DNA from: Methanosphaera sp. BMS
Lineage (GTDB): Archaea; Methanobacteriota; Methanobacteria; Methanobacteriales; Methanobacteriaceae
Reading direction: 5' to 3'
DNA: 64,000 nt
Assembly: GCF_003268005.1 (NCBI RefSeq)
Contig: NZ_CP014213.1
Coordinates: 744,001 to 808,000, forward strand
Part shown: one piece after another, positions 12,247 to 62,944 of the stretch
How positions within the stretch are numbered: position 1 is the first letter of the stretch
Layout: every line of letters begins with the position of its first letter
Program-made: the position numbers and the translations under genes
The notes under the pieces: generated by a model
Seen by the model: the letters and a program-made list of their open reading frames with translations, nothing else
Told to the model about the DNA's origin: nothing
Database searches by the model: none

Positions 12247-12710
12247 AATATTATCTCCTATTGTTTTATAATTATATGTATGGATAATTAATTATATATA
12301 CTTTAGATAACAATGCATTCCATTTTTTACCCCGATAAAAAAATGATTTATGAAGTCAATGTTAGATAAGTCACAGCTCCACAGAACTGTCCATCTGATT
12401 ATCATACTTTTTGAAAAATCCTCTTGTTTTAATCTCAAATGTTATTAACATAAATCTAATTCTTTCAAAATTAATAATATCATGGTAACTGAAGTAAAAG
12501 AATAAATGATAAATATAACCGTTGGTTATTAGGTTATATACGTAATTATTTTTATTAATTTTATGACATGCAATGTTTGTATGAATTATTTTTAAACCTT
12601 ATGATAAAACATACTATAAGGAAATAAAAACACAAATTTAAACGTTTTCTGAACATTAATTTATGGAACTGGTTTAATGCTGTTGTAAAAAAATGAGAAA
12701 ATAGGGGAGT
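12247..12710. other. Intergenic region between histone and giant adhesin
   Basis: AT-rich gap holding the histone promoter on the minus strand and the 3' flank of the adhesin gene. No gene or RNA is recognisable. Confidence 0.45.
12291..12303 (-). promoter_or_regulatory. Probable TATA box for histone copy 1
   Basis: The minus strand reads AAAGTATATATAAT, about 50 bases before the histone ATG. This matches an archaeal TATA box preceded by A-rich BRE-like bases, and would give a short leader holding the AGGAGAT ribosome binding site (12253-12260). Confidence 0.5.
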
Positions 12711-15700
12711 TTAGTTTGTGATTTTTATCACTTTTGTCGTGTTTCTCTGTGAGTTGTATGCCAGTCTATCCTGTGTTATGACTTCTATGCTGGTGTAGTT
12801 TTTAGATTGAGGTACCGGTATGTTTTTAAGGTTTAACACTCCATCGGTTGTGTAGTAGTACTGTACATTTGTACCGTTTTTGAGAGTTACACCATTTATT
12901 TTTATTACAAGTTTGTTTGGTCCTGCTACTGTGTTTTTTAGGTAGTCTTTGATTGTTATTTTCATGGATAATGTGTGTGTCTTGTTGTTTATTGTAGCGT
13001 TGGCTAGGTTGATTGTGATGTTTGATCTTTCCACTTGGAAGGTTGGTGTTTTTGTCATGATGTTCTGGTAGTTTTTGTTGTAGAGTCCCACTTGTATGGT
13101 GTGATTTTTTGGTGTTAGTGTCTGCATATCTGTTACGCAGGATATTCCTAGTGGTATTGTGTAGTTTACTGTTGCCGTGCCATTTATTATCTTGACTTTA
13201 AGCATTTCTCCGTTGGCGTCCTTGAGTGTTATGCCGTTTATTTTGAAGTATACGTATTCGTCCTGGTATCGTGTTATGTTGCTTGTTTTTTTGCCGTTGG
13301 TGGTGTCATATATTTTAGCGGTTATCGTTAGTACTTGTCCCTGTTTGATTATCTTCTTGTTTGTAGTTACTTCTATTGTAGCGTTACGTTTGGATATATT
13401 TATACTTGCCGGGCTACTGGTTGATGCGTTGTATATTGTTGTACCAACGTAGTATGCTGTGATGTTTTTAGCATTGGTCATATTGATGTCTGGTATGATG
13501 GTGGCTGTTGCTACTCCATTTACTACTTTAACTTTAAGTGGGTTATTTGAACCGGTTAGTTTTCCGTTGTCTTTTATTGTTACGCCGTTTACTTTGAATA
13601 TGAGGTTTCCTTCGTTTACATTGTTGCCGTTTGTATCGGTTACTGTTGCTTTGATGGTGAGTTTTTCTCCTATAACTCCAGTAGCTGGGTTAACTGTGGT
13701 TTGTGTTTTTATCTTGTTTTTCACGGTTATTCGGATGGTTTTTGTGCTGTTGTTGTATCTGCTGTCTCCAGCGTATGTTGCGGTTATGTTTTGTGTTTCA
13801 ACTTTAGTAGGTGTGTAGGTTTGTGTTATTATTCCAGTATTGTTTGTTTTTGCCGTTACTGTTTTTCCGTTGATGTTTAGTGTTACTTGTTGATTTGCTA
13901 GTTTATTGTTATCTGCATCTGTTAGTGTCACGGTAATGGTTACTTGTGTGTTGTTTATTGGTGTGGTATTGGATACTTTTAGATCCAGTTTAGTGTTTAT
14001 CTTTTTGACTGTTATAGTGGTTGTTGCTGTACTGTTAATGTATTTGCTATCTCCTTTATAGTTTGCGGTTATTGTCTGTTTTCCTAGTGTTGTTGGTGTG
14101 TATGTTTGTGTTGCTACACCGTTGCTATTGGTTTTAACATTGAATGTTTTACCTGCAACATTTAATGTAATGTTTTGATTTGCAATTGCTTTATTATCAG
14201 TATCTGTTAGTGTTGCTGTTATTGTAATGTTTGTATTGTTTACTGGTGTACTGTTGGATACTTTTACTAATAGTTTGGTGTTAATATTCTTAACGGTTAT
14301 GGTGGTTGTTGCTGTACTGTTAATGTATTGGCTAGTTCCATTGTATGTTACGGTTATTGTTTGTTTTTCTACTTTGGTTGGCGTGTATGTTTGTGTTGCT
14401 ACACCATTGCTATTGGTTTTTACATTTAATGTTTTATCACTTACTTTTATTGTAATGTTTTGGTTTGCTAGTTTGTTACCATTGGTATCTGTTAGTGTTA
14501 CGGTTATGTTGATTGGTGTGTTGTTTATTGGTGTGGTGTTGGATACTTTTACAGATAGTTTGGTGTCTATTTTTATGATGTTTATTGTTGTTGTTTGTTC
14601 TGGACTGTTGTTGTGTTGACTGTCTCCATTATATGTAGCAGTTATTGTTTGTTTTCCTAGTGTTGTTGGTGTATAGTTTTGGGTTGCTACACCGTTGCTA
14701 TTGGTTTTTATGTTGAATGTTTTATCGGCAACAGTTACTGTGATGTTTTGGTTTGCAAGTTTGTTACCAGTTGCATCTGTTAGTGTTGCTGTAATTGTAA
14801 TGCTTGTACTGTTTACTGGTGTACTGTTGGATACTGTTAGTGTTAGTTTTGTGTCTATTTTATATACGTTTATTTGTGTTGTTGTTGTGTTCGTGTTGTA
14901 CATATCGTTTCCAGGGTATGTGGCGGTGATTGTTTGTGTTTCAACTTTTTTAGGAGTGTAAGTTTGTGTTACTGTTCCTTTTTCGTTTGTGTTGAGGGTG
15001 AATGTTTCCTCGCCTATTGTGATTGTTATTGGCGTGTTGTTTAGTGTTTTATTGTTTTTGTCTTTTAGTGTTGCTGTTATGTTGATTGGTGTGCTATTTA
15101 TTGGTGTATTATTGGATACTGTTAGTGTTAGTTGTGTGTCTATTTTGTTTGCGGTGATTTGTATTGTTGTGCTGTTTTCTTGGTATGGCTTGTTTGCCTT
15201 GTATGTTGCGGTTATTGTTGTTGTTTGGTTGTTTGTTGGCGTGTATTCTATACTTGCAATACCGTCCGTGTTTGTTGTTATCGTATTTGTCTGGTCTTTT
15301 ATTGTTACGAGTATTTTTTGTCCTGGTAGTGTGTATCCTAGTTGGTCTTTTAGGGTGTAGGTTATGTTTATTGTATCATTTACGTATGGCTGTGTATTGT
15401 TTATGGTGGCTTCTATTGTCGTGTTTAACTGTTCATATTCTACATCAAATTCAAGAGTAGCACTAGCATCCTTATATACTGTGGATTCATTTGCATATTT
15501 TGCTTCAACTGTTATCGTGTCATTGCTATTTACAGTTACAGGATATATTAACTTACCGTTTTCACCTGTTAGATTATTATATGTTAGTAGAGTATCTGTT
15601 GTGTTTTTTATTGTTAGTGTTATGTTGGCATCTTTTACTCCATTTTTATCCACATCAAGTAATTCTACAGTTATGTTAAATGTTTTATTAACATATACCA

Positions 15701-17555
15701 TCTCATCACTTTTACTTATATTAAGTGTCGTGTTTATTTTTTCAACAGGTATTAATATACTCTGGGTTGAGTAATTATAACTTGTTGTTTCAGGATGTGA
15801 CGCATTTACTGTGATTGTTTGATTGTTTACTGGTATGTATTCCAGGTAGGCGATTCCATATTGGTTTGTTTGAAGTGTCTGTTCCTGATTGTTAATTTTT
15901 ATGATTATTTGCTGATGTGATAGGTTTTTATTATTCATGTCTGTTAAGTGGAATGTTAAATTAATAACATCATATACATATGGATTAGTGTTATTAGATG
16001 ATATTGTAAGTGTAGTGTTAACCTTCTCATCATAGAACACATTACCCACAACACGAGCACTACCCTGACCGGATGTAACTATGTATATTGTATTATTGTA
16101 TACAGTTCTATCATCACCTATATTATCCTCTATTTTAACGTTTTGACTACCAGCTACTACTTTAATTGGCTCACCGTTTTGGGGTGCGTTGTTGGCTATG
16201 AAATAATTATCCTCAACAACCACAACACCCCACTCGTTGTATATTGCACCCCCATCTTGGTTTGCAGTGTTGTTTGTCAATGTAGAGTTAGAAATATTAA
16301 ATGACCCATCATAGTTATCTATTGCACCTCCAAGACCAGTTCCATCATTAGGATTTCCTGCTTTGTTGTTTTCCAGTATGGAGTGTATGATTGTTAGCAA
16401 ACCATTGTTTTCTATTGCACCCCCATCACTGCTTGCGGTGTTATTGTTGAGGTTGGATTGTGTTATGGTAAGATTACCCCCATAGTAGTTGTATATTGCA
16501 CCTCCCTGTCCATCTTTTTGTCCTGTTGCTGTGTTATTGTTGAGGTTGGTGTTGTTTATGTTAAAAGTACCACTGCCTGTGTTGTATATTGCACCTCCAA
16601 CTCCATATTGTCCTGTTGCGTTGTTTTGTGTGAGGTTGGATTGTGTTATGTTAATAGTACCACCGTTGTTGTATATTGCACCTCCAACTCCATATCCATC
16701 TCCATTTTGTCCTTGTCCTGTTGCTGTGTTTTGTGTGAGGTTGGATTGTGTTATGTTAATAGTACCAGTGTTGTATATTGCACCTCCATACTCATATCTT
16801 TGTCCTGTTGCCTTGTTTTGTGTGAGGTTGGATTGTGTTATGGTAAGATTACCACCTTCGTTGTTGTATATTGCACCTCCACGTCCATTTGTTTGTCCTG
16901 TTGCGGTGTTGTTGTTGAGGTTGGAGTCTATTATTGTTATGTTACCGTTGTTGTTGTTTATTGCTCCTCCATATTGTGCTGTGTTGTTTTTGAGTGTGCT
17001 GTTTATTATGGTTAAGTTTCCACCGTTGTCTATTGCTCCACCATATCCACCAGTGTTTTTGGCATTTATTATTGTGATGTTTTTAAGAATTACTGAAGAG
17101 CCACTATTAATATAAAATACTTGTGTTTGGTTTCCGTCTATGGTTTGTCCGTTACCGTCAATAGTAATTGTTATCGCCTGATTAAAAGTAATTGTACCGT
17201 TAGCTGTATATGTTTCTCCTGTTAGTGTTATAGTTGTATCTTCTGTTGCATCAGTTATTGTACTGTTAAGTGTAGTCCATGAATCTACTGTTGTATCTTT
17301 TTTTAGGTTATTTGTGTTTTTTTGTATGTTTTTTGTGGTTTTTGTCTGATTTGTATTCGTTTTTTGTTTTATATTTTCTACTGTATTTGTATCACTTGGT
17401 GATACTGTTGATTTTTCTTGTACTGCTTTTTCAAGTATTAGGGGTGTATCGCTAGTGGGTGTGTCTGCTTCGGTGGATACTTCATTTGCCGTTGCAACTC
17501 CCACTAAGAGTACTAATACTATGACAAATAACAGTACTTCTTTTATTTTTTTCAT
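12711..17555 (-). CDS. Giant secreted adhesin-like protein: Pmp/beta-helix repeats plus Ig-like (Big) repeats
   Basis: 1614 residues, rich in Thr and Asn. A clear signal peptide (MKKIKEVLLF then a hydrophobic run ending ATANE) is followed by a low-complexity Thr/Asn linker. Residues about 95-480 are a right-handed beta-helix with ten GGAI turns of the polymorphic-membrane-protein type, e.g. GGAIYNNEGGNLTITQSNL. From about residue 510 come roughly eleven beta-sandwich repeats of about 96 residues. Five or six in the middle are close copies (KLANQNITV, TNSNGVATQTYTPT), showing recent tandem duplication; the last three are divergent. No anchor or pseudomurein-binding repeat is obvious. Many Asn-X-Thr sites suggest glycosylation. 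GGAGGA precedes ATG 17555. Presumably a cell-surface adhesin. Confidence 0.9.
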   Translation of the reverse strand: MKKIKEVLLFVIVLVLLVGVATANEVSTEADTPTSDTPLILEKAVQEKSTVSPSDTNTVENIKQKTNTNQTKTTKNIQKNTNNLKKDTTVDSWTTLNSTITDATEDTTITLTGETYTANGTITFNQAITITIDGNGQTIDGNQTQVFYINSGSSVILKNITIINAKNTGGYGGAIDNGGNLTIINSTLKNNTAQYGGAINNNNGNITIIDSNLNNNTATGQTNGRGGAIYNNEGGNLTITQSNLTQNKATGQRYEYGGAIYNTGTINITQSNLTQNTATGQGQNGDGYGVGGAIYNNGGTINITQSNLTQNNATGQYGVGGAIYNTGSGTFNINNTNLNNNTATGQKDGQGGAIYNYYGGNLTITQSNLNNNTASSDGGAIENNGLLTIIHSILENNKAGNPNDGTGLGGAIDNYDGSFNISNSTLTNNTANQDGGAIYNEWGVVVVEDNYFIANNAPQNGEPIKVVAGSQNVKIEDNIGDDRTVYNNTIYIVTSGQGSARVVGNVFYDEKVNTTLTISSNNTNPYVYDVINLTFHLTDMNNKNLSHQQIIIKINNQEQTLQTNQYGIAYLEYIPVNNQTITVNASHPETTSYNYSTQSILIPVEKINTTLNISKSDEMVYVNKTFNITVELLDVDKNGVKDANITLTIKNTTDTLLTYNNLTGENGKLIYPVTVNSNDTITVEAKYANESTVYKDASATLEFDVEYEQLNTTIEATINNTQPYVNDTINITYTLKDQLGYTLPGQKILVTIKDQTNTITTNTDGIASIEYTPTNNQTTTITATYKANKPYQENSTTIQITANKIDTQLTLTVSNNTPINSTPINITATLKDKNNKTLNNTPITITIGEETFTLNTNEKGTVTQTYTPKKVETQTITATYPGNDMYNTNTTTTQINVYKIDTKLTLTVSNSTPVNSTSITITATLTDATGNKLANQNITVTVADKTFNIKTNSNGVATQNYTPTTLGKQTITATYNGDSQHNNSPEQTTTINIIKIDTKLSVKVSNTTPINNTPINITVTLTDTNGNKLANQNITIKVSDKTLNVKTNSNGVATQTYTPTKVEKQTITVTYNGTSQYINSTATTTITVKNINTKLLVKVSNSTPVNNTNITITATLTDTDNKAIANQNITLNVAGKTFNVKTNSNGVATQTYTPTTLGKQTITANYKGDSKYINSTATTTITVKKINTKLDLKVSNTTPINNTQVTITVTLTDADNNKLANQQVTLNINGKTVTAKTNNTGIITQTYTPTKVETQNITATYAGDSRYNNSTKTIRITVKNKIKTQTTVNPATGVIGEKLTIKATVTDTNGNNVNEGNLIFKVNGVTIKDNGKLTGSNNPLKVKVVNGVATATIIPDINMTNAKNITAYYVGTTIYNASTSSPASINISKRNATIEVTTNKKIIKQGQVLTITAKIYDTTNGKKTSNITRYQDEYVYFKINGITLKDANGEMLKVKIINGTATVNYTIPLGISCVTDMQTLTPKNHTIQVGLYNKNYQNIMTKTPTFQVERSNITINLANATINNKTHTLSMKITIKDYLKNTVAGPNKLVIKINGVTLKNGTNVQYYYTTDGVLNLKNIPVPQSKNYTSIEVITQDRLAYNSQRNTTKVIKITN
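13720..15160 (-). repeat. Tandem DNA repeats encoding about 96-residue Ig-like units
   Basis: Within the adhesin gene, units of about 285-290 bases recur in tandem. Each encodes a version of SNSTPVNNT, ANQNIT, TNSNGVATQTYTP and a Thr-rich strand. Identity between neighbours is high enough to see at the DNA level, so unequal recombination could change the number of repeats. Confidence 0.7.
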
Positions 17556-17822
17556 ATTGAACTATCCTCCATTAGTTATAGTTTATTATGATACTCTATA
17601 TGTGAAGTGGTGGTATTTAATATTTTTTAGAGTTTTTTATAAAAAAAGAAGTTAAATTAAATAGTAATATACTTATTAAAGAGTTTATATTCTGAAATTA
17701 CTGATTTTTCTTAGAGCTGTTATGATTGTATCCGATGTATCTTTTTTCTATGATTATTTAATGGATAGACATGATTAATCATGATAATTAGGGGGTGAAT
17801 ATTATCTTTTTTTTTTATACAA

Positions 17823-17857
17823 TGAGTATTGGACAAAACTCTTAAATTACTTATTTT
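17823..17857. repeat. Left terminal inverted repeat of the IS
   Basis: Starts TGAGTATTGGACAAAACTC; 16 of the first 18 bases match the reverse complement of the right end, and TTATTTT is shared further in. Confidence 0.65.
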
Positions 17858-18170
17858 ATCTTAATTTTCCATATTTATTCTTATTTTAGTTTTTTAATGG
17901 TGTATTGTTCTTTTTTTATTTTAGTTTTATTATTTTTTTAATTATTTTTATTTTTTTATTAATTTTTTTCTGCGTGTATTTTGCTTGTTTTTGATAGTTA
18001 CAGTTAGTTTTATATATTATTTTTATATAAATAATTATAATTATTTAATATTTAATATAAGTAGTTAGTTAGTCTTTAAACTAAGTATTAATGTTTATTT
18101 AATTGTATTTTTATATTTTGATTATATTTTGTTAGATTTATTAAATATTATATGGTTGGGTGTTTATGTT

Positions 18171-19655
18171 ATGTATTCTGAAGTTTTTGATGAAAAGAAA
18201 CGTTTGTTACGTGAGCGTGGTTTGATTAGTTTTGTTTTGGATGATGATTTGTTGTTTTTTATCAAGTTTTTTGTTGAGAATTATTGTCAGGAAATTTGTG
18301 GTTATTTTGAGCAAAAAGGAACTGGACGTCCTCGTTATCCAATTGAAAACATGCTTGGATTGCTTTTATATGCTTATTGTAATAAAGTATTTTCTCCGAA
18401 GGACATAGAGAGCAATTCACGTACTAATATTCCTTATATGGTGTTGATGGATGGGTTAACACCATCTAGTCGTAGTATTAGTCGTTATCGTTTTGTTTTA
18501 GGTTGTTATTATAAGTCTATTCTTTCTAGAACATTGCAGTTGGCTGTTGATTTGGGTTTAACAGATTTTGATCATGTAGCAATTGATGGTACAATTATTA
18601 AAGCATATAACAGTAGTTTTAATGTTATTCGTAAAGTAGATGTTAATCGTTTAATTAAAATACTAGAAAATGATAATCATGATGAAGAGATTATAAATAA
18701 GTTAAGAAAACCTGCTTATAATTTGTTAAATAGTGATATGAAGTTAAAAGAAAAACTTGACTTTTTATATCATTTGAAAGAAGAATTAAAAAGTAGTGGG
18801 CAAAAAACTGTGGCATTGTATGATAGTGAAGCTCGTTGGATGTTAAACAAAAAAGGAAAAAAAGAAATATCATACAATCTTCAAACAGCAGTAGACTACA
18901 CAAGCAAACTAATATTAGCTATTCATGTTTCCAATCACCCTACTGACCATTATCAACTACCACCAACACTAACCAAAGCCATACAAAATAGTCCAGTACC
19001 ATTAAATAAAATAAGTGCCGATACAGGATACCATAACGAAGTAAGCAGCAGCATACTACAAAAATACGAACTAGATGGATATATAGTTAACAGAAAACAA
19101 ACCAAAGACCACAAAAAACAATACAATTCCAACCCATTCCATAAAGATAATATGATAGAAATTGAAGGAACTAATGCATTTTTATGCTTTAATAATGAAC
19201 TACTAACATTCAAATACCAATACGTAGTTAATAACAAAAATAAAAAGAAACAAGAAGACCCATATGAAATAAAAAGAATATTCAACAATCCCGAAGCATG
19301 TTACATCTGCCCATACAAAAAATTATGCTTCACTGACTCACATACACACAGACAAGTAACAGAATATGGATCAGAATACACACAACAGATGAAATACAAA
19401 CTCGAAACCATCGAAGGAAAAGAAGAATACAAAAAAAGATCCAAAACAGTAGAAGCACCATTCGGAACATTCAAACAACAATACCACATCAACAAACTAC
19501 CATTTATCAAAACACAAAACATAGAAAACAACATAAACCTATACAGCATAACATACAATATAAAACGAATAATAAACATGATAGAACTAGAATTAGATGT
19601 AAATAAAGAATATCAAACATTTAAAAAAGAAAAAATAAAAGAATATCAATTATAA
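18171..19655 (+). CDS. IS1182-family DDE transposase
   Basis: 494 residues from the ATG at 18171, preceded by GGGTG; a longer frame from TTG 18129 is less likely. Motifs fit IS1182: an N-terminal region with RPRYPIENMLGLLLYAY, first catalytic Asp in VAIDGTIIKAY, second Asp in KISADTGYHNE, a Cys-containing stretch ACYICPYKKLCF, and the Glu region KTVEAPFGTFKQQYH. The frame is intact, so the protein may be active. Composition is odd: the first half of the gene is T/G-rich and the second half A/C-rich on the same strand, with the change near 18850. Confidence 0.9.
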   Translation: MYSEVFDEKKRLLRERGLISFVLDDDLLFFIKFFVENYCQEICGYFEQKGTGRPRYPIENMLGLLLYAYCNKVFSPKDIESNSRTNIPYMVLMDGLTPSSRSISRYRFVLGCYYKSILSRTLQLAVDLGLTDFDHVAIDGTIIKAYNSSFNVIRKVDVNRLIKILENDNHDEEIINKLRKPAYNLLNSDMKLKEKLDFLYHLKEELKSSGQKTVALYDSEARWMLNKKGKKEISYNLQTAVDYTSKLILAIHVSNHPTDHYQLPPTLTKAIQNSPVPLNKISADTGYHNEVSSSILQKYELDGYIVNRKQTKDHKKQYNSNPFHKDNMIEIEGTNAFLCFNNELLTFKYQYVVNNKNKKKQEDPYEIKRIFNNPEACYICPYKKLCFTDSHTHRQVTEYGSEYTQQMKYKLETIEGKEEYKKRSKTVEAPFGTFKQQYHINKLPFIKTQNIENNINLYSITYNIKRIINMIELELDVNKEYQTFKKEKIKEYQL

Positions 19656-19891
19656 AAAAAATAGAACATTTACTAACCTCCTCAAAAAACACACCCTCTT
19701 TTTTTACAAACACCTAATAAAACAAATAAAAATATAACAATGTTAATTATTTTAATAAAAAATCTAAATAAACACAAAAAATAAGGAAAAAATGATGAAA
19801 AAACTCCAATAAAATATCAACATTGATAAAATAATAATATTCAAAAATAGGTTAAAACAAGAAAACAAGAAAATATAAAACGATTAAGCAG

Positions 19892-19926
19892 AAAATAAAA
19901 GAATAAAAAGTTTTGTCATATACTCA
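19892..19926. repeat. Right terminal inverted repeat of the IS
   Basis: The plus strand reads AGTTTTGTCATATACTCA at its outer end, the inverted counterpart of the left end with two mismatches in 18 bases. Confidence 0.65.
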
Positions 19927-21507
19927 CAATTTTCCTGGCGTATAATTATTTGTGTTTTTGTTCATTTTGTAAGTCCAATCAGCATATTTTATATTTTTTA
20001 TTATTTTTCTTGTTTTAGTAATATTTTGTTTAGTTTATGTTATTTTTTGTATGTATCTGTTTATTTTGTTCTTCTTCTTTTCTTGTGTTTTGTCGCATAT
20101 TATATTAATATACGATCAAATCCAAGATATGAATGATTAATACTAAAAGTAAACAAGTCGGTGAAAGGAATGAGGTTATTATTAATATATTAATTTTTTA
20201 AACTAAAAACTATATAATTTCTACTTTAAAATAACAATAAGTATTTATTATGAATTTGGTAAAAGAAGGCAAAGTTATGAATGGAAAAAAAATGTAAAAA
20301 ACCAAAATAACTCGTTCGGAACCATTTATACAAGAAAATTTAAGAGTTATATGTGCCCCATGAATTTGTGGGAGTTATGGCCGATAACAAGAAGTCATTG
20401 AATGATAACAGCAAGATATGGATGAAGCATAGCAAGGATAGGATATGATCTTATCATTTACAATGTGGAAATTTAACTAGATTTATCATGATTCCATGAT
20501 TAATGTCGTCAGGTTAAGATTTCGTTCTTTATGTAAAATATTTCAATTTAATTTTAACTTATTTTTATGAAACTGATGAAAAAGAAACATTAATAACAAA
20601 TTTACCACAAGAAACTATGGGTAAAGAACAATTAAAAGAAATATATTTATGAAAACTAATGGTTACATGCTTTTTGCTTATTTTATTTTTTGTATGGTTA
20701 TTGTATAACTAATATATTATTCGGAGAAAAATGATACAATATATTTCTAGTTGGGAGTTGGAATAATATTAAAATTACGGGCTATAATTAATATGGATAT
20801 TTAAATAAGATATCAAATTATCATGGTTAAATATAATTAAATTAAATAGTAGTTTCTAATTTAATATTTTTTGGATAGATTATCAGCATGTTCTCTATCA
20901 TTTTTGGTGTTTACATTTTTTTGTGGGAACGTTTTGGTTTTGTGGGTTCAAAAGAGCATATATGCTTTGTTTTTGTGGGAACAATACTGATTTGTATGTA
21001 CACCATATTTCAAATGTGTTCTACTAACCATTATATGGTTGTATATGTGTTAAATATTCATTCAGATACTCCTGATTTTACTGTTTACAATACAAAATCA
21101 CCCAATATATACTAACTTAACGACACTACAAAATATATTAAAAATATCTATCATGGAAACTAAAAGAACAAGCAAATATGGGACTATTAATTATTTTAAA
21201 ATTGAAAAATAGAACAACTGATTAGATAGGACGTAGCATCGAATGACAAGATATGATAATTTCATAATTCTTGCACACTCCATTATAATAAAATAAAAAA
21301 TAAATACGTAAAAATAATAAAAAAGATTAGTCTTCAATGAGAGTTGTCGCACATCCTCAATAAAATACAAAAAAATGCTAAGACAATCCCATAACACAAA
21401 AACTACATCAATATTAAAAACAAAAGGATTATTAAAAGAAAATTACAAAACTAAAAAAAATAATATTGTCCACAATCGGTTAATAGAAAAAGAATATAAT
21501 AAGAAGT
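19927..21507. other. 1.6-kb gene-poor region to the right of the IS
   Basis: No intact gene can be supported. A 23-codon frame at 20377-20448 starts MADNKKSLND with GGGAG just upstream and then ends; it may be a remnant. Motifs of the TTTGTGGGAAC family occur at 20365, 20919, 20938 and 20970. The open frames at 20888-21115 (plus) and 21191-21397 (minus) have no family features and look like chance. The region resembles that at 10.3-12 kb. Confidence 0.45.
20365..20982 (+). repeat. Dispersed degenerate motif TTTGTGGGAAC, several copies
   Basis: Copies: TTTGTGGGAG (20365-20374), TTTTTTTGTGGGAAC (20916-20930), TTTTGTGGGTTC (20938-20949) and TTTTTGTGGGAACA (20970-20982). The stretch TGTGGGAACnTTTTGG at 20922 matches the inverse of CCAAAATGTTCCCACA near 11650, indicating a repeat shared between two gene-free regions. 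Confidence 0.4.
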
Positions 21508-59503: not shown

Positions 59504-60079
59504 TTCTAAATACTAACCTACCTTTATTATTTTTTTAGTAAAGTAATGAACAATCATTACTTAATTCTATTTTTAAATTGATTTACACAATTACCTTCAC
59601 AAAATATAGTTGCAATAGCTTTAAACATATATTATAGAGAATGGGACAATAATTCTGTTTAGATGTTTTTTTAGCTAGGATTTTCTTATTATTATGTTCA
59701 TAATTATCAAATATAACTTGATATTATGTTTAATATATAATAGAAAATTATTTTTATTCTCATGAGTGTTGGCATAAATTATGTTTTTTCACTCTTGAGT
59801 AATACTTTTATACACTTACTAATTTATTAGTATCTGTTTTAGTTAAAATTTAAAATAATTATATTATTAATACTTATCATGACTCCCCTTTGAATACTTA
59901 TCATATGCTCTCATTTTATTTATATAGTATCTATGAATAATATAATAATATAATCATGTAATATGTTATGTCTTTATAATGGGGGACTGTTATGAATGTT
60001 TATTGGGGAACATTTTGTTAGATATTATGTGATTATGTTTATTCAGTGATTATAAAGGAGGTGAACTAAGATAAGTATT
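59504..60079. other. Intergenic region and presumed left end of the TnpB element
   Basis: AT-rich DNA after dapL. It should contain the left end of the IS605-type element, but I could not define a boundary. A strong GGAGGTGA at 60057-60064 lies 16 bases before the tnpB ATG. No tnpA gene is present. Confidence 0.4.
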
Positions 60080-61435
60080 ATGTCTGATGATTGTGTTTTA
60101 TTAACTCAAAGTGTTCTTATTCGTGGTCTTACTAAGAAACAATATAATGTTTTGGTGGATATTTCCTTGAAACTTAACTCTTTGAGAAATTGTGCGGTGG
60201 AAAAGACGCCATTTGTTAAATCTACTGACAGAAAGCATTTTAAGAAAATAAATTTTAAATCAATAATTAGCAAGGTCAAAGAGGAATTTAAGATGGAATA
60301 TTCTTTTGTTCAGGCTCATTTAGCTAATGCTGCTATAAAAAAGCATGTTGAATCATTCAATGAATATATTGAGTTGAAAAATAAAAAAATTGATGGTAAA
60401 TACAATCGAAAGGTTAATCCGCCTAAAAAACATGAGAATTATCGACTACATAACATTATAATTCCGAAAGAATCTATTACTTCTTCTAAAAAGAAGCTAA
60501 GAGAGGGTTTTATAGAATTACCCTTAAGTAGGGAGTATAAGAAAGTGTTGGAATCAAAGAATTGTAGACCTAGAATAAAAATTCCTGAGAATATACGAGA
60601 TAAAAAGATTATTCAAGTGGAAATCATTCCTATAAATAATGGAAAGATGTTTAAGGCAAATTTCACTTATGAAGCTGAAAAAGAGCCATTGGATTTGGAT
60701 AAGGATAAAATTATGGGTATTAATCCTGGTGTAAATAATTTTGCAACAATTATTACAACCGAAGGGCCTCACGTGCAATTGTGGACGGGAGAAAATTAAA
60801 AAATCAAATATACTTCAAAATGTAAGAAAACAGCACACTACCAATCAATACTTAATAAACAAGGACGTAAAACATCCAATAGAATCCAAAAAATAAACCA
60901 AAAATTCAAAAACATACAAGACAACTTCCTCAACCAAACAGTAAACTTCATCATAAAAAAATGCAAACAACAAGATATAGGTACAATTGTGCTTGGATAC
61001 AACAATAATTTCCAGCACAAGACCAATATAGGAAAAAAACAAAACCAAATATTTTCACACATAGCATTCAAACAATTCAAACAAAAACTAGAAACACGAT
61101 GCCAAATACACGAAATAGACCTGATAATACAGGAAGAATCATACACAAGCCAAAGCAGCTTCCTAGATGAAGACATACTCCCAAAATACCAAGAAAAAAA
61201 AGACGCTGAAAACAAGGGGGATAAAAAAAAGAAGGATAAAAAGAAGGAAGATAAAGTTAAATATGAATTTAAGGGCAATAGAGTCCAACGTGGATTATAC
61301 GAAACACAAAATGGAAAAATTATTAACGCAGATGTAAACGCTGCAGCCAATATTATACGAAAATGTAAGCATAGGTTCAATTTTGAGCTATTGTGTAAGT
61401 GGGTCCAGACTACTCCGTATAAAATCAAATTATAA
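60080..61435 (+). pseudogene. tnpB: TnpB (IS605/IS1341-type), frameshifted, first RuvC Asp changed to Asn
   Basis: Two open frames make up one TnpB. The first (60080-60799) gives the N-terminal domain through the start of RuvC: LTKKQYNVLVDISLKLNSLR ... MGINPGVNNFATII, then ends early. The second (about 60800-61435) carries AHYQSILNKQGRKTSNRIQK, DIGTIVLGYNNNFQ, the RuvC Glu in IIQEESYTSQSSFLDED and the last Asp in IINADVNAAANI. Two small shifts near 60770-60800 are needed; in a middle frame the expected IVDGRKLKN appears. The first RuvC Asp (usual GIDxGVNN) is Asn. It lacks the CxxC zinc finger. Almost certainly an inactive nuclease. Confidence 0.85.
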
Positions 61436-61438
61436 CCA

Positions 61439-62119
61439 AGACATCCAGATATATAATAGGTGCGGTATAAAAAAAATGTTTATCCCTTATTGTCCATTAT
61501 TGTTATTATCATATGTTTGTCGTTATTTGATTTGAACAAAGGCAAAAGAGAGTATTCCATGCAGTATGATTATTTCTGGGTTTTAAATCTTTTATAATAA
61601 AAGAAAGAAAGGTTGTACTGTTTATTGTTTACTTGCTTTAAAATGAAAAAATGGGTGTATTATAAAATATATGTTTATGGAAGTTTTTTTTTCTTCTTGA
61701 CTTATATGAGTAATACTTTTTTTTGTTTTAAAATACTTTTGGCCAAGTCTCTCTCATAGTAAAATAATTGTCGTACACCCTTGTTGTCGGGTTTTTTTTA
61801 TCTTGTTTTTGAACTTATTTTTTTGCCTGGTTTGTGTTATTTTTTTTGTTATTTTTATTAAAAATATACAAAAAGTATATATATTTAAATATTAATATAT
61901 ACATTATATATTATTATTTAATATTTTTTAAAAATAATAATATGAATTGTTAATATTAACAGAACATTATATAAAAAATTTTAAAATTTTTAAAAATAAT
62001 TACACATCTTTATATTAAAAAAATAAGAATTTTAATAGATTTTTTTAAAAATTCCATTAAAATAAAGCGAATCTTTATATAATAGAAGTTTAATATTAAT
62101 ATTAAGGAGTTGATAAAAA
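61439..62119. other. AT-rich intergenic region before histone copy 2
   Basis: Contains the unresolved right end of the TnpB element at the left side and the histone promoter at the right. Some 680 bases with no gene, tRNA or repeat that I can support. Confidence 0.4.
62074..62083 (+). promoter_or_regulatory. Promoter of histone copy 2 (BRE/TATA)
   Basis: AAAGCGAATCTTTATATAAT spans an A/G-rich BRE-like stretch and a strong TATA box (TTTATATAAT). Transcription would start about 25 bases downstream near 62105. AGGAG (62105-62109) lies ten bases before the ATG. Confidence 0.65.
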
Positions 62120-62326
62120 ATGACAGAAATACCAAAAGCACCAATTACAAGAATTGTAAAAAATGCAGGTGCAGAAAGAATTAGTAAAGATGCAGAAGAA
62201 AAATTTGTTGAAGCAGTAGAAGCTTACACAGCCAAATTAGCTGAAGCAGCAATCGATTTAGCAAAACACGCAGATCGTAAAACTATTCAACCAGATGATG
62301 TAGAATTAGCATTAAAACATTTCTAA
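62120..62326 (+). CDS. Archaeal histone, HMf family (copy 2)
   Basis: 68 residues: MTEIPKAPITRIVKNAGAER, middle helix KFVEAVEAYTAKLAEAAIDL and loop KHADRKTIQPDDVELALKHF. One histone fold. Clearly different from copy 1: the Gly before the RK pair is Asp and the middle helix is more acidic, so the two may form heterodimers with altered DNA wrapping. It has its own strong promoter and a 3' hairpin, and stands alone. Confidence 0.97.
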   Translation: MTEIPKAPITRIVKNAGAERISKDAEEKFVEAVEAYTAKLAEAAIDLAKHADRKTIQPDDVELALKHF

Positions 62327-62337
62327 ACACATCTTTT

Positions 62338-62372
62338 ATCTAGATTTAAATAATTATATTTAATTTCTAGAT
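62338..62372 (+). terminator. Stem-loop downstream of histone copy 2
   Basis: ATCTAGATTTAAAT (62338-62351) pairs with ATTTAATTTCTAGAT (62358-62372) with one bulge, 12 bases after the stop, followed by a T-containing stretch. Likely 3' end of the short histone message. Confidence 0.5.
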
Positions 62373-62728
62373 TAACCCTTTTATTAACTAATTTTTTAAA
62401 AATTATATTTCTTGATTACCTATTGTGAATCAGTCATCATATCCCACTATAAAATAATTCGCTTATTATCGTAATTTATCAGAATATATTACATTTATTT
62501 TTAAGCTCATTAAATATATATTTTATGCTGACGATTCAATTTCACATTGTTTATTGATTGAAGACTTTGTTTATAAAAATACTGATTTTAAAAGCTTTGA
62601 TAGAAAAAGTATTAAGATACGACCTTATTTTAAGAAAAAGTAATAAATACTTATAAATACTTATTAAATAATAATATTATATAAAGTAGTATTAACTTTA
62701 AAAAATCATTAAGCACATGGGTGATTGT
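62373..62728. other. Intergenic region with TATA-like sequence before the small HTH gene
   Basis: AT-rich. A TATA-like run (ATTATATAAAG) around 62676-62686 could be the promoter for the next gene. Nothing else recognised. Confidence 0.4.
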
Positions 62729-62944
62729 ATGATTAATGAAGAAATAATATATAATTATGTAAAAAACTATAAAAACATCAAAGAAGAGGACATCATAAAT
62801 ATAATATACTTCGATAGTCCAGTATCAATAACAAAACAACAAATAAAAAACATATTAACTCACTTGGTAAGCCAAAAACGATTGACCATCAAAGAAAACA
62901 ATGGAAAGATAAACTATTGTGTAAACACCACACAAATAACATAA
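62729..62944 (+). CDS. Small winged-helix-like protein
   Basis: 71 residues from ATG 62729, five bases after GGTGAT. Predicted three helices and a beta wing: EEIIYNYVKNYKNIKEEDII, then VSITKQQIKNILTHLVSQKR (possible recognition helix) and LTIKENNGKINYCVN. This resembles small archaeal winged-helix DNA-binding proteins, but no family could be named. It is monocistronic and contains no membrane or metal motif. The upstream GTG-containing frame to 62717 is less likely. Confidence 0.6.
   Translation: MINEEIIYNYVKNYKNIKEEDIINIIYFDSPVSITKQQIKNILTHLVSQKRLTIKENNGKINYCVNTTQIT

Follow-up and report, generated by a model that had tools for sequence, protein, structure and literature searches.

A switch in strand composition between the halves of an IS1182-like insertion sequence, and its recurrence among transposons of Methanosphaera and Methanobrevibacter-type hosts

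The window, i.e., the whole 64-kb stretch of DNA analysed here, belongs to a Methanosphaera genome of one contig (2,868,093 bases) and contains a complete insertion sequence (IS) with its transposase gene. Strand composition is expressed as K = (G+T-A-C)/all, positive in T/G-rich (keto) and negative in A/C-rich (amino) sequence, and for genes as D3, the keto skew at third codon positions of the first half minus that of the second half. The locus has the following features:

17819..17823, no strand: target duplication ACAAT, 5 bp, left copy, read from the sequence
17824..19925, + strand: complete IS1182-like insertion sequence of about 2.1 kb with inverted ends GAGTATTGGACAAAAC / GAGTATATGACAAAAC; copies L001-L003 share exactly these bounds
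17824..18170, + strand: left non-coding part of the IS, T/G-rich, K +0.38
17824..18845, + strand: T/G-rich (keto) half of the element, by strand composition
18171..19655, + strand: transposase gene, 494 aa, with Pfam DUF772, DDE_Tnp_1 and DDE_Tnp_1_6; closest NCBIfam model IS1182
18846..19925, + strand: A/C-rich (amino) half of the element, by strand composition; best two-part split at 0.49 of the element
19656..19925, + strand: right non-coding part of the IS, A/C-rich, K -0.39
19926..19930, no strand: target duplication ACAAT, 5 bp, right copy, read from the sequence

Among all NCBIfam matches the transposase is hit best by the IS1182 model NF033551 (E=1.3e-71), which aligns to nearly its whole length but scores 242 bits, under the cut-off of 270, and for this reason the element is named IS1182-like, where an earlier, sequence-only reading had called the gene an IS1182 transposase outright. 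With the IS1182 family it shares the nearly full-length match, the inverted ends and the target duplication, and it differs in the score and in its composition switch, which bacterial IS1182 genes lack. A DDE transposase domain is present (DDE_Tnp_1_6 and DDE_Tnp_1 above cut-off in Pfam, an assignment at the level of domains), as are terminal inverted repeats of the form GAGTAT..GACAAAAC. The transposase protein is found in three identical copies at different genome sites, one of them in opposite orientation, and the three insertions are flanked by the 5-bp target duplications ACAAT, TGTTT and TTATT. Because identical copies at separate sites show different duplications, the composition pattern travels with the element.

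On recount, the coding strand contains exactly the bases given in the sequence-only reading, A14 T31 G13 C2 at 18241-18300 and A32 T9 G3 C16 at 19081-19140. When 700-base halves are compared, the strongest strand-composition switch of the whole window lies at 18845 (keto difference +0.61), in agreement with the position near 18850 noted before, and the reading frame of the transposase runs unbroken across it; the second-strongest switch is the right end of the element at about 19909 (keto difference -0.52). The flip in codon choice described from the letters is borne out by third codon positions, which reverse from A.27 T.53 G.17 C.03 before to A.56 T.18 G.02 C.24 after the switch, and first and second codon positions shift as well. 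Non-coding flanks had been said to follow the same sides, which holds for the parts inside the IS (17824-18170 and 19656-19925) but not beyond the IS ends, where the skew stops. The fold-symmetric pattern is a property of the element. D3 of the transposase gene is +0.91 compared to +0.11 +/- 0.08 for synonymous-codon shuffles of the same protein (z=10.4), and 305 non-overlapping ORFs of at least 250 aa from 40 sampled 20-kb stretches of the same genome (800 kb) have a mean D3 of 0.02 (sd 0.17). As both fall far short of the observed value, amino-acid content alone, which the sequence-only reading named as an explanation that would undo the observation, does not explain the switch.

The pattern recurs in other transposons, and the switch is present in other copies and in distant homologues, so that the absence from other copies that would have spoken against the sequence-only reading is not seen. 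The five top D3 values among the 305 sampled ORFs all belong to transposon genes, one DDE, one TnpB and three IS66-like genes, two of the latter being copies of a single element; the ORFs at ranks 6 and 7 resemble, by their sequence, adhesin-like genes and rank 8 is another IS1182-like gene, while the two most negative values come from a protein without Pfam match and an adhesin-like gene. Unrelated full-length transposon genes of this genome, i.e., IS1182-like, other DDE (445 and 473 aa), IS66-like and TnpB genes, switch in the same direction with D3 of about 0.4 to 1.0. Searching named genomes for IS1182 with a single protein gave no match and with an alignment as query 58 loci, and among the matches listed in a phylum-wide search none lay outside the family. 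Close IS1182 homologues within the genus Methanosphaera reach D3 of 0.84 to 1.14, including those at 42% identity (L030-L033, L057), and IS1182 genes of Methanobrevibacter-type hosts, by which we mean genera g4, g5 and g10, mostly 0.1 to 0.6, with the exceptions L034 (+0.15), L037 (-0.13), L038 (-0.43) and L048 (-0.36); this comparison covers loci with a best aligned segment of about 300 residues or more, and its 42 rows include overlapping loci of one copy. At the level of whole elements, 20 DDE families with ends fixed by at least two copies were taken from six genomes (G000, G050, G060, G043, G025, G063). All 20, which are not fully independent as several are homologous between genomes, slope from keto to amino, 17 of them at -0.5 or steeper, and G025 supplies two of the three weakest. 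Mean slopes of host ORFs, taken at 300-600 aa together with similar flanks, are -0.02 (sd 0.15; 163 ORFs in G000) and -0.01 (sd 0.11; 108 in G060), and a slope of -0.5 is reached by none of these 271 ORFs versus 17/20 DDE elements. An element-wide change from T/G to A/C thus recurs over DDE families of Methanosphaera and Methanobrevibacter-type hosts, non-coding parts included, and ordinary genes lack it. As separate observations, at G000:C1:1987583-1991234 two ends of the 473-aa DDE family are separated by 3.65 kb, double the usual 1.8 kb, which suggests a nested insertion or cargo, and adhesin-like genes at L072:12202-17091 and L196:3858-7931 and 12253-16302 contain long blocks of extreme strand composition of either sign, in which the keto skew at third positions reaches +0.89 or -0.79 across hundreds of codons.

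In other groups the switch is weak, absent or reversed. Bacterial IS1182 genes from Colwellia, Pseudomonas, Halomonas, Chromohalobacter, Staphylococcus, Enterococcus, Sulfurimonas and others, AT-rich ones included, have D3 of about -0.3 to +0.3, the highest value, 0.38, being that of a Clostridiaceae fragment, and eight annotated transposon genes on two bacterial plasmids (gene GC 0.26-0.43) range from -0.11 to +0.18. Two bacterial-labelled loci from goat gut metagenomes, L138 and L141, have D3 of 0.35 and 0.53, and their genes resemble methanogen IS1182; these contigs may be misbinned or reflect transfer. Within the archaeal family, three DDE loci in genera g3 and g16 show no switch (D3 0.04 to 0.07). 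TnpB genes are mixed: two families of this genome carry the switch, several others of the genus lack it, and those present in multiple copies in Methanobrevibacter are A/C-rich over their whole length. The comparison of TnpB and of g3/g16 DDE genes covers loci whose ORF has 280 aa or more, and a few of these ORFs (e.g., L260, L218, L211, L221) may be neighbours rather than transposases. A Methanosphaera TnpB gene, L207, has uniformly A/C-rich third positions over its full length (-0.61 to -0.84) without a switch, and at about 59567-62854 of the window (locus L119) lies a disrupted copy of a 439-aa TnpB element family with an open frame of 211 aa at the match, which probably causes two further window switches near 60554 and 61363. 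A search of this genome for a TnpA partner able to move TnpB elements found neither a Y1 nor a serine type.

The bias is greatest at silent sites and common to non-coding DNA, as is typical for replication-type asymmetry. Along eight pooled genes, C/(C+T) at two-fold silent sites climbs from.10 to.74, with.63 in the last eighth, and G/(G+A) declines from.35 to.02, with.06 in that eighth; background genes remain at.36-.39 and.28-.29. Fourfold sites lose T (.65 to.06) and gain A (.21 to.78). This silent-site pattern resembles leading versus lagging strands of strongly skewed chromosomes. Non-coding ends of the DDE families have the expected sign in 19/20 cases on the left and 18/20 on the right. 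In the IS1182_A group most comparisons of non-coding ends are little or no closer than shuffled sequence, and despite this lost similarity the group keeps a K between +0.24 and +0.38 at the left end and between -0.30 and -0.43 at the right end. The downstream non-coding end of L057, part of an AT-rich element, has several runs of C and hardly any G. The switch point lies on average at 0.45 of the element (sd.11, range 0.20-0.62) versus 0.36 of the gene (sd.17), several families switching off-centre at 0.20-0.37 of the element, and a later gene start in the element goes along with an earlier switch in the gene (Pearson -0.48, p=.03; Spearman -0.30, p=.20). These position data lean towards a process at the level of the element without settling the matter. 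As material for separating gene from element, two-gene elements were sought, and an IS21 helper gene turned up in a single one of the 119 genomes of the family, which is not a Methanosphaera genome; a search for short non-autonomous elements with DDE ends found no clear set. No chromosomal strand skew of matching size appeared in 20 sampled stretches.

Changes at third positions were polarised by comparing the window element with an 89% relative, using a 77% relative as outgroup. In this active lineage amino-to-keto changes number 24/162 in the left versus 26/410 in the right half and keto-to-amino changes 14/308 versus 10/68 (Fisher p=.003 and.005 for the two classes), corresponding to a half-specific ratio of 7.6 (CI 2.8-20). 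Singletons of young copies from 14 multi-copy families, counted at silent and non-coding sites, amount to 101/11759 and 108/15608 on the left and to 67/15623 and 34/7429 on the right, a half-specific ratio of 1.32 (CI 0.81-2.17), while upkeep of the present composition needs 2.79. As the ratio falls below that needed, mutation while resident is, alone, unlikely as source of the pattern. Two sources are left, mutation that accompanies copying and selection acting over long times. An apparent erosion of the skew in a first all-site count of young copies was dropped as confounded by constrained coding positions, and the count was redone at silent and non-coding sites.

We tentatively favour, with a confidence that stays somewhat short of even, the view that the switch is a mini-replichore signature left by strand-asymmetric mutation tied to transposon copying. 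When a copy leaves or is copied, the gap would be refilled by repair synthesis from both flanks on the sister chromosome, the new strands extending inward and meeting near the middle. In the left half the plus strand, and in the right half the minus strand, would then stay single-stranded longest, and deamination there (C to T, A to G) would render each strand T/G-rich in its 5' half; the composition would build up over many rounds, in the way that replication shapes the leading and lagging strands of a chromosome. Since C and A would both be altered on the exposed strand, both silent-site transitions are expected to move together, as is seen. The single-stranded transposition intermediate proposed in the sequence-only reading comes close to this, insofar as inward copying would expose the 5' half of each strand, and its "opposite replication effects" would apply only if copying is coupled to transposition, as the chromosome has no comparable skew and young-copy mutations do not maintain the pattern. 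D-loop repair synthesis in yeast leaves long mutagenic single-stranded DNA according to PMC9262586, a likeness to break-induced replication in which the long single-stranded nascent DNA gives mutations; there the effect was shown in yeast, here copying would be read from composition over evolutionary time.

Several observations speak against copying as the cause. Young copies, each with at least one transposition behind it, show little half-specific mutation, which fits selection at least as well and would allow few such changes per jump. Several families switch at 0.20-0.37 of the element and not in the middle, and TnpB genes are mixed; some IS1182 genes of relatives (L034, L037, L038, L048) lack or reverse the pattern; and A/T transversions at fourfold sites flip too, which deamination alone would not give. 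As bacterial IS1182 genes lack the pattern, copying would furthermore need a host factor. The main rival, which we consider rather unlikely all the same, is selection on bulk nucleic-acid composition that keeps the ends T/G-rich when read inward, e.g., blocking host read-in transcription or limiting transposase expression. It accounts for active lineages keeping the bias while young copies drift without it, and T-rich coding strands favour termination in archaea. However, the terminator signal proper, runs of T, is no more frequent than codon usage predicts, and a terminator needs neither G over A nor C over T at silent sites, both of which are seen. Antisense RNA became more structured after removal of the gradient in both genes tested, as selection might predict, while local folding of the sense RNA in these two genes was unchanged; the lack of T-run enrichment and the unaffected sense folding weaken the two selective ideas tested. 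The hairpin intermediate or selection for folding suggested by the sequence-only reading finds no clear support in this unchanged sense folding, although whole-gene folding energy was lower than in within-half shuffles for DDE445 and not for the other gene. Moreover, the non-coding ends keep composition rather than sequence, and weak selection would have to act at about 2000 sites of a short-lived parasite.

If the element replicated as a small circle, from an origin where its two ends join, forks would converge mid-element and give the same polarity and the sharp switch near the middle of several families; we consider this improbable, as neither a circle nor an origin was observed, bidirectional replication of a 2-kb unit would be out of the ordinary and all the unrelated families would need it. 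Transcription from both flanks, or chromosomal replication, could expose opposite strands in the two halves while the element is resident, and read-in from both sides gives the correct polarity, but the young-copy ratio at silent and non-coding sites (1.3, CI 0.8-2.2) is below the 2.8 needed, the chromosome has no matching strand skew and host genes lack the pattern, which leaves this account a small chance. We give almost no credence to the idea that the pattern stems from amino-acid content, that the gene is a chimera or that IS1182 transposases are peculiar in this respect: the shift at first and second codon positions speaks in its favour, but the synonymous shuffle refutes it for this element, and unrelated DDE, IS66-like and TnpB families share the switch while bacterial IS1182 genes do not.

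In replication strand asymmetry, be it of leading and lagging strands or mitochondrial, one strand is enriched in T/G and the other in A/C, most strongly at silent sites. As in replication-associated asymmetry (PMC3269012), two opposite arms meet at a point; the unit here is a transposon of 1.3-2.1 kb with arms running inward from its ends, in a host chromosome without skew. Fungal genes, according to PMC3315797, have opposite GC skews with C-biased 5' and G-biased 3' ends and uniform AT skews, and ordinary genes are affected. They likewise show a sign change along the gene that involves fourfold sites, amino acids and flanking non-coding DNA, but here the sign is opposite, the AT skew reverses too and the pattern sets mobile elements apart from ordinary genes. 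A full-text search of open-licence papers found no report of such a pattern in transposons, which is not proof of absence.

It is possible, though we hold it with clear doubt, that DNA transposons of gut Methanobacteriaceae are regenerated mainly by inward copying from both flanks with long-lived single strands, a host-specific mode that would leave a replichore-like signature over unrelated families. If selection were the cause, the finding would reveal a nucleic-acid-level constraint common to unrelated transposons. In either reading the pattern is strong, recurrent and testable, and it offers a simple marker by which the transposon genes of these genomes can be found. Should the copying model hold, base composition alone would report how a transposon is copied in hosts in which transposition has hardly been studied, and it would point to unusual single-strand repair in gut methanogens; the opposite skew of the transposon halves may then be a fossil record of transposon copying.
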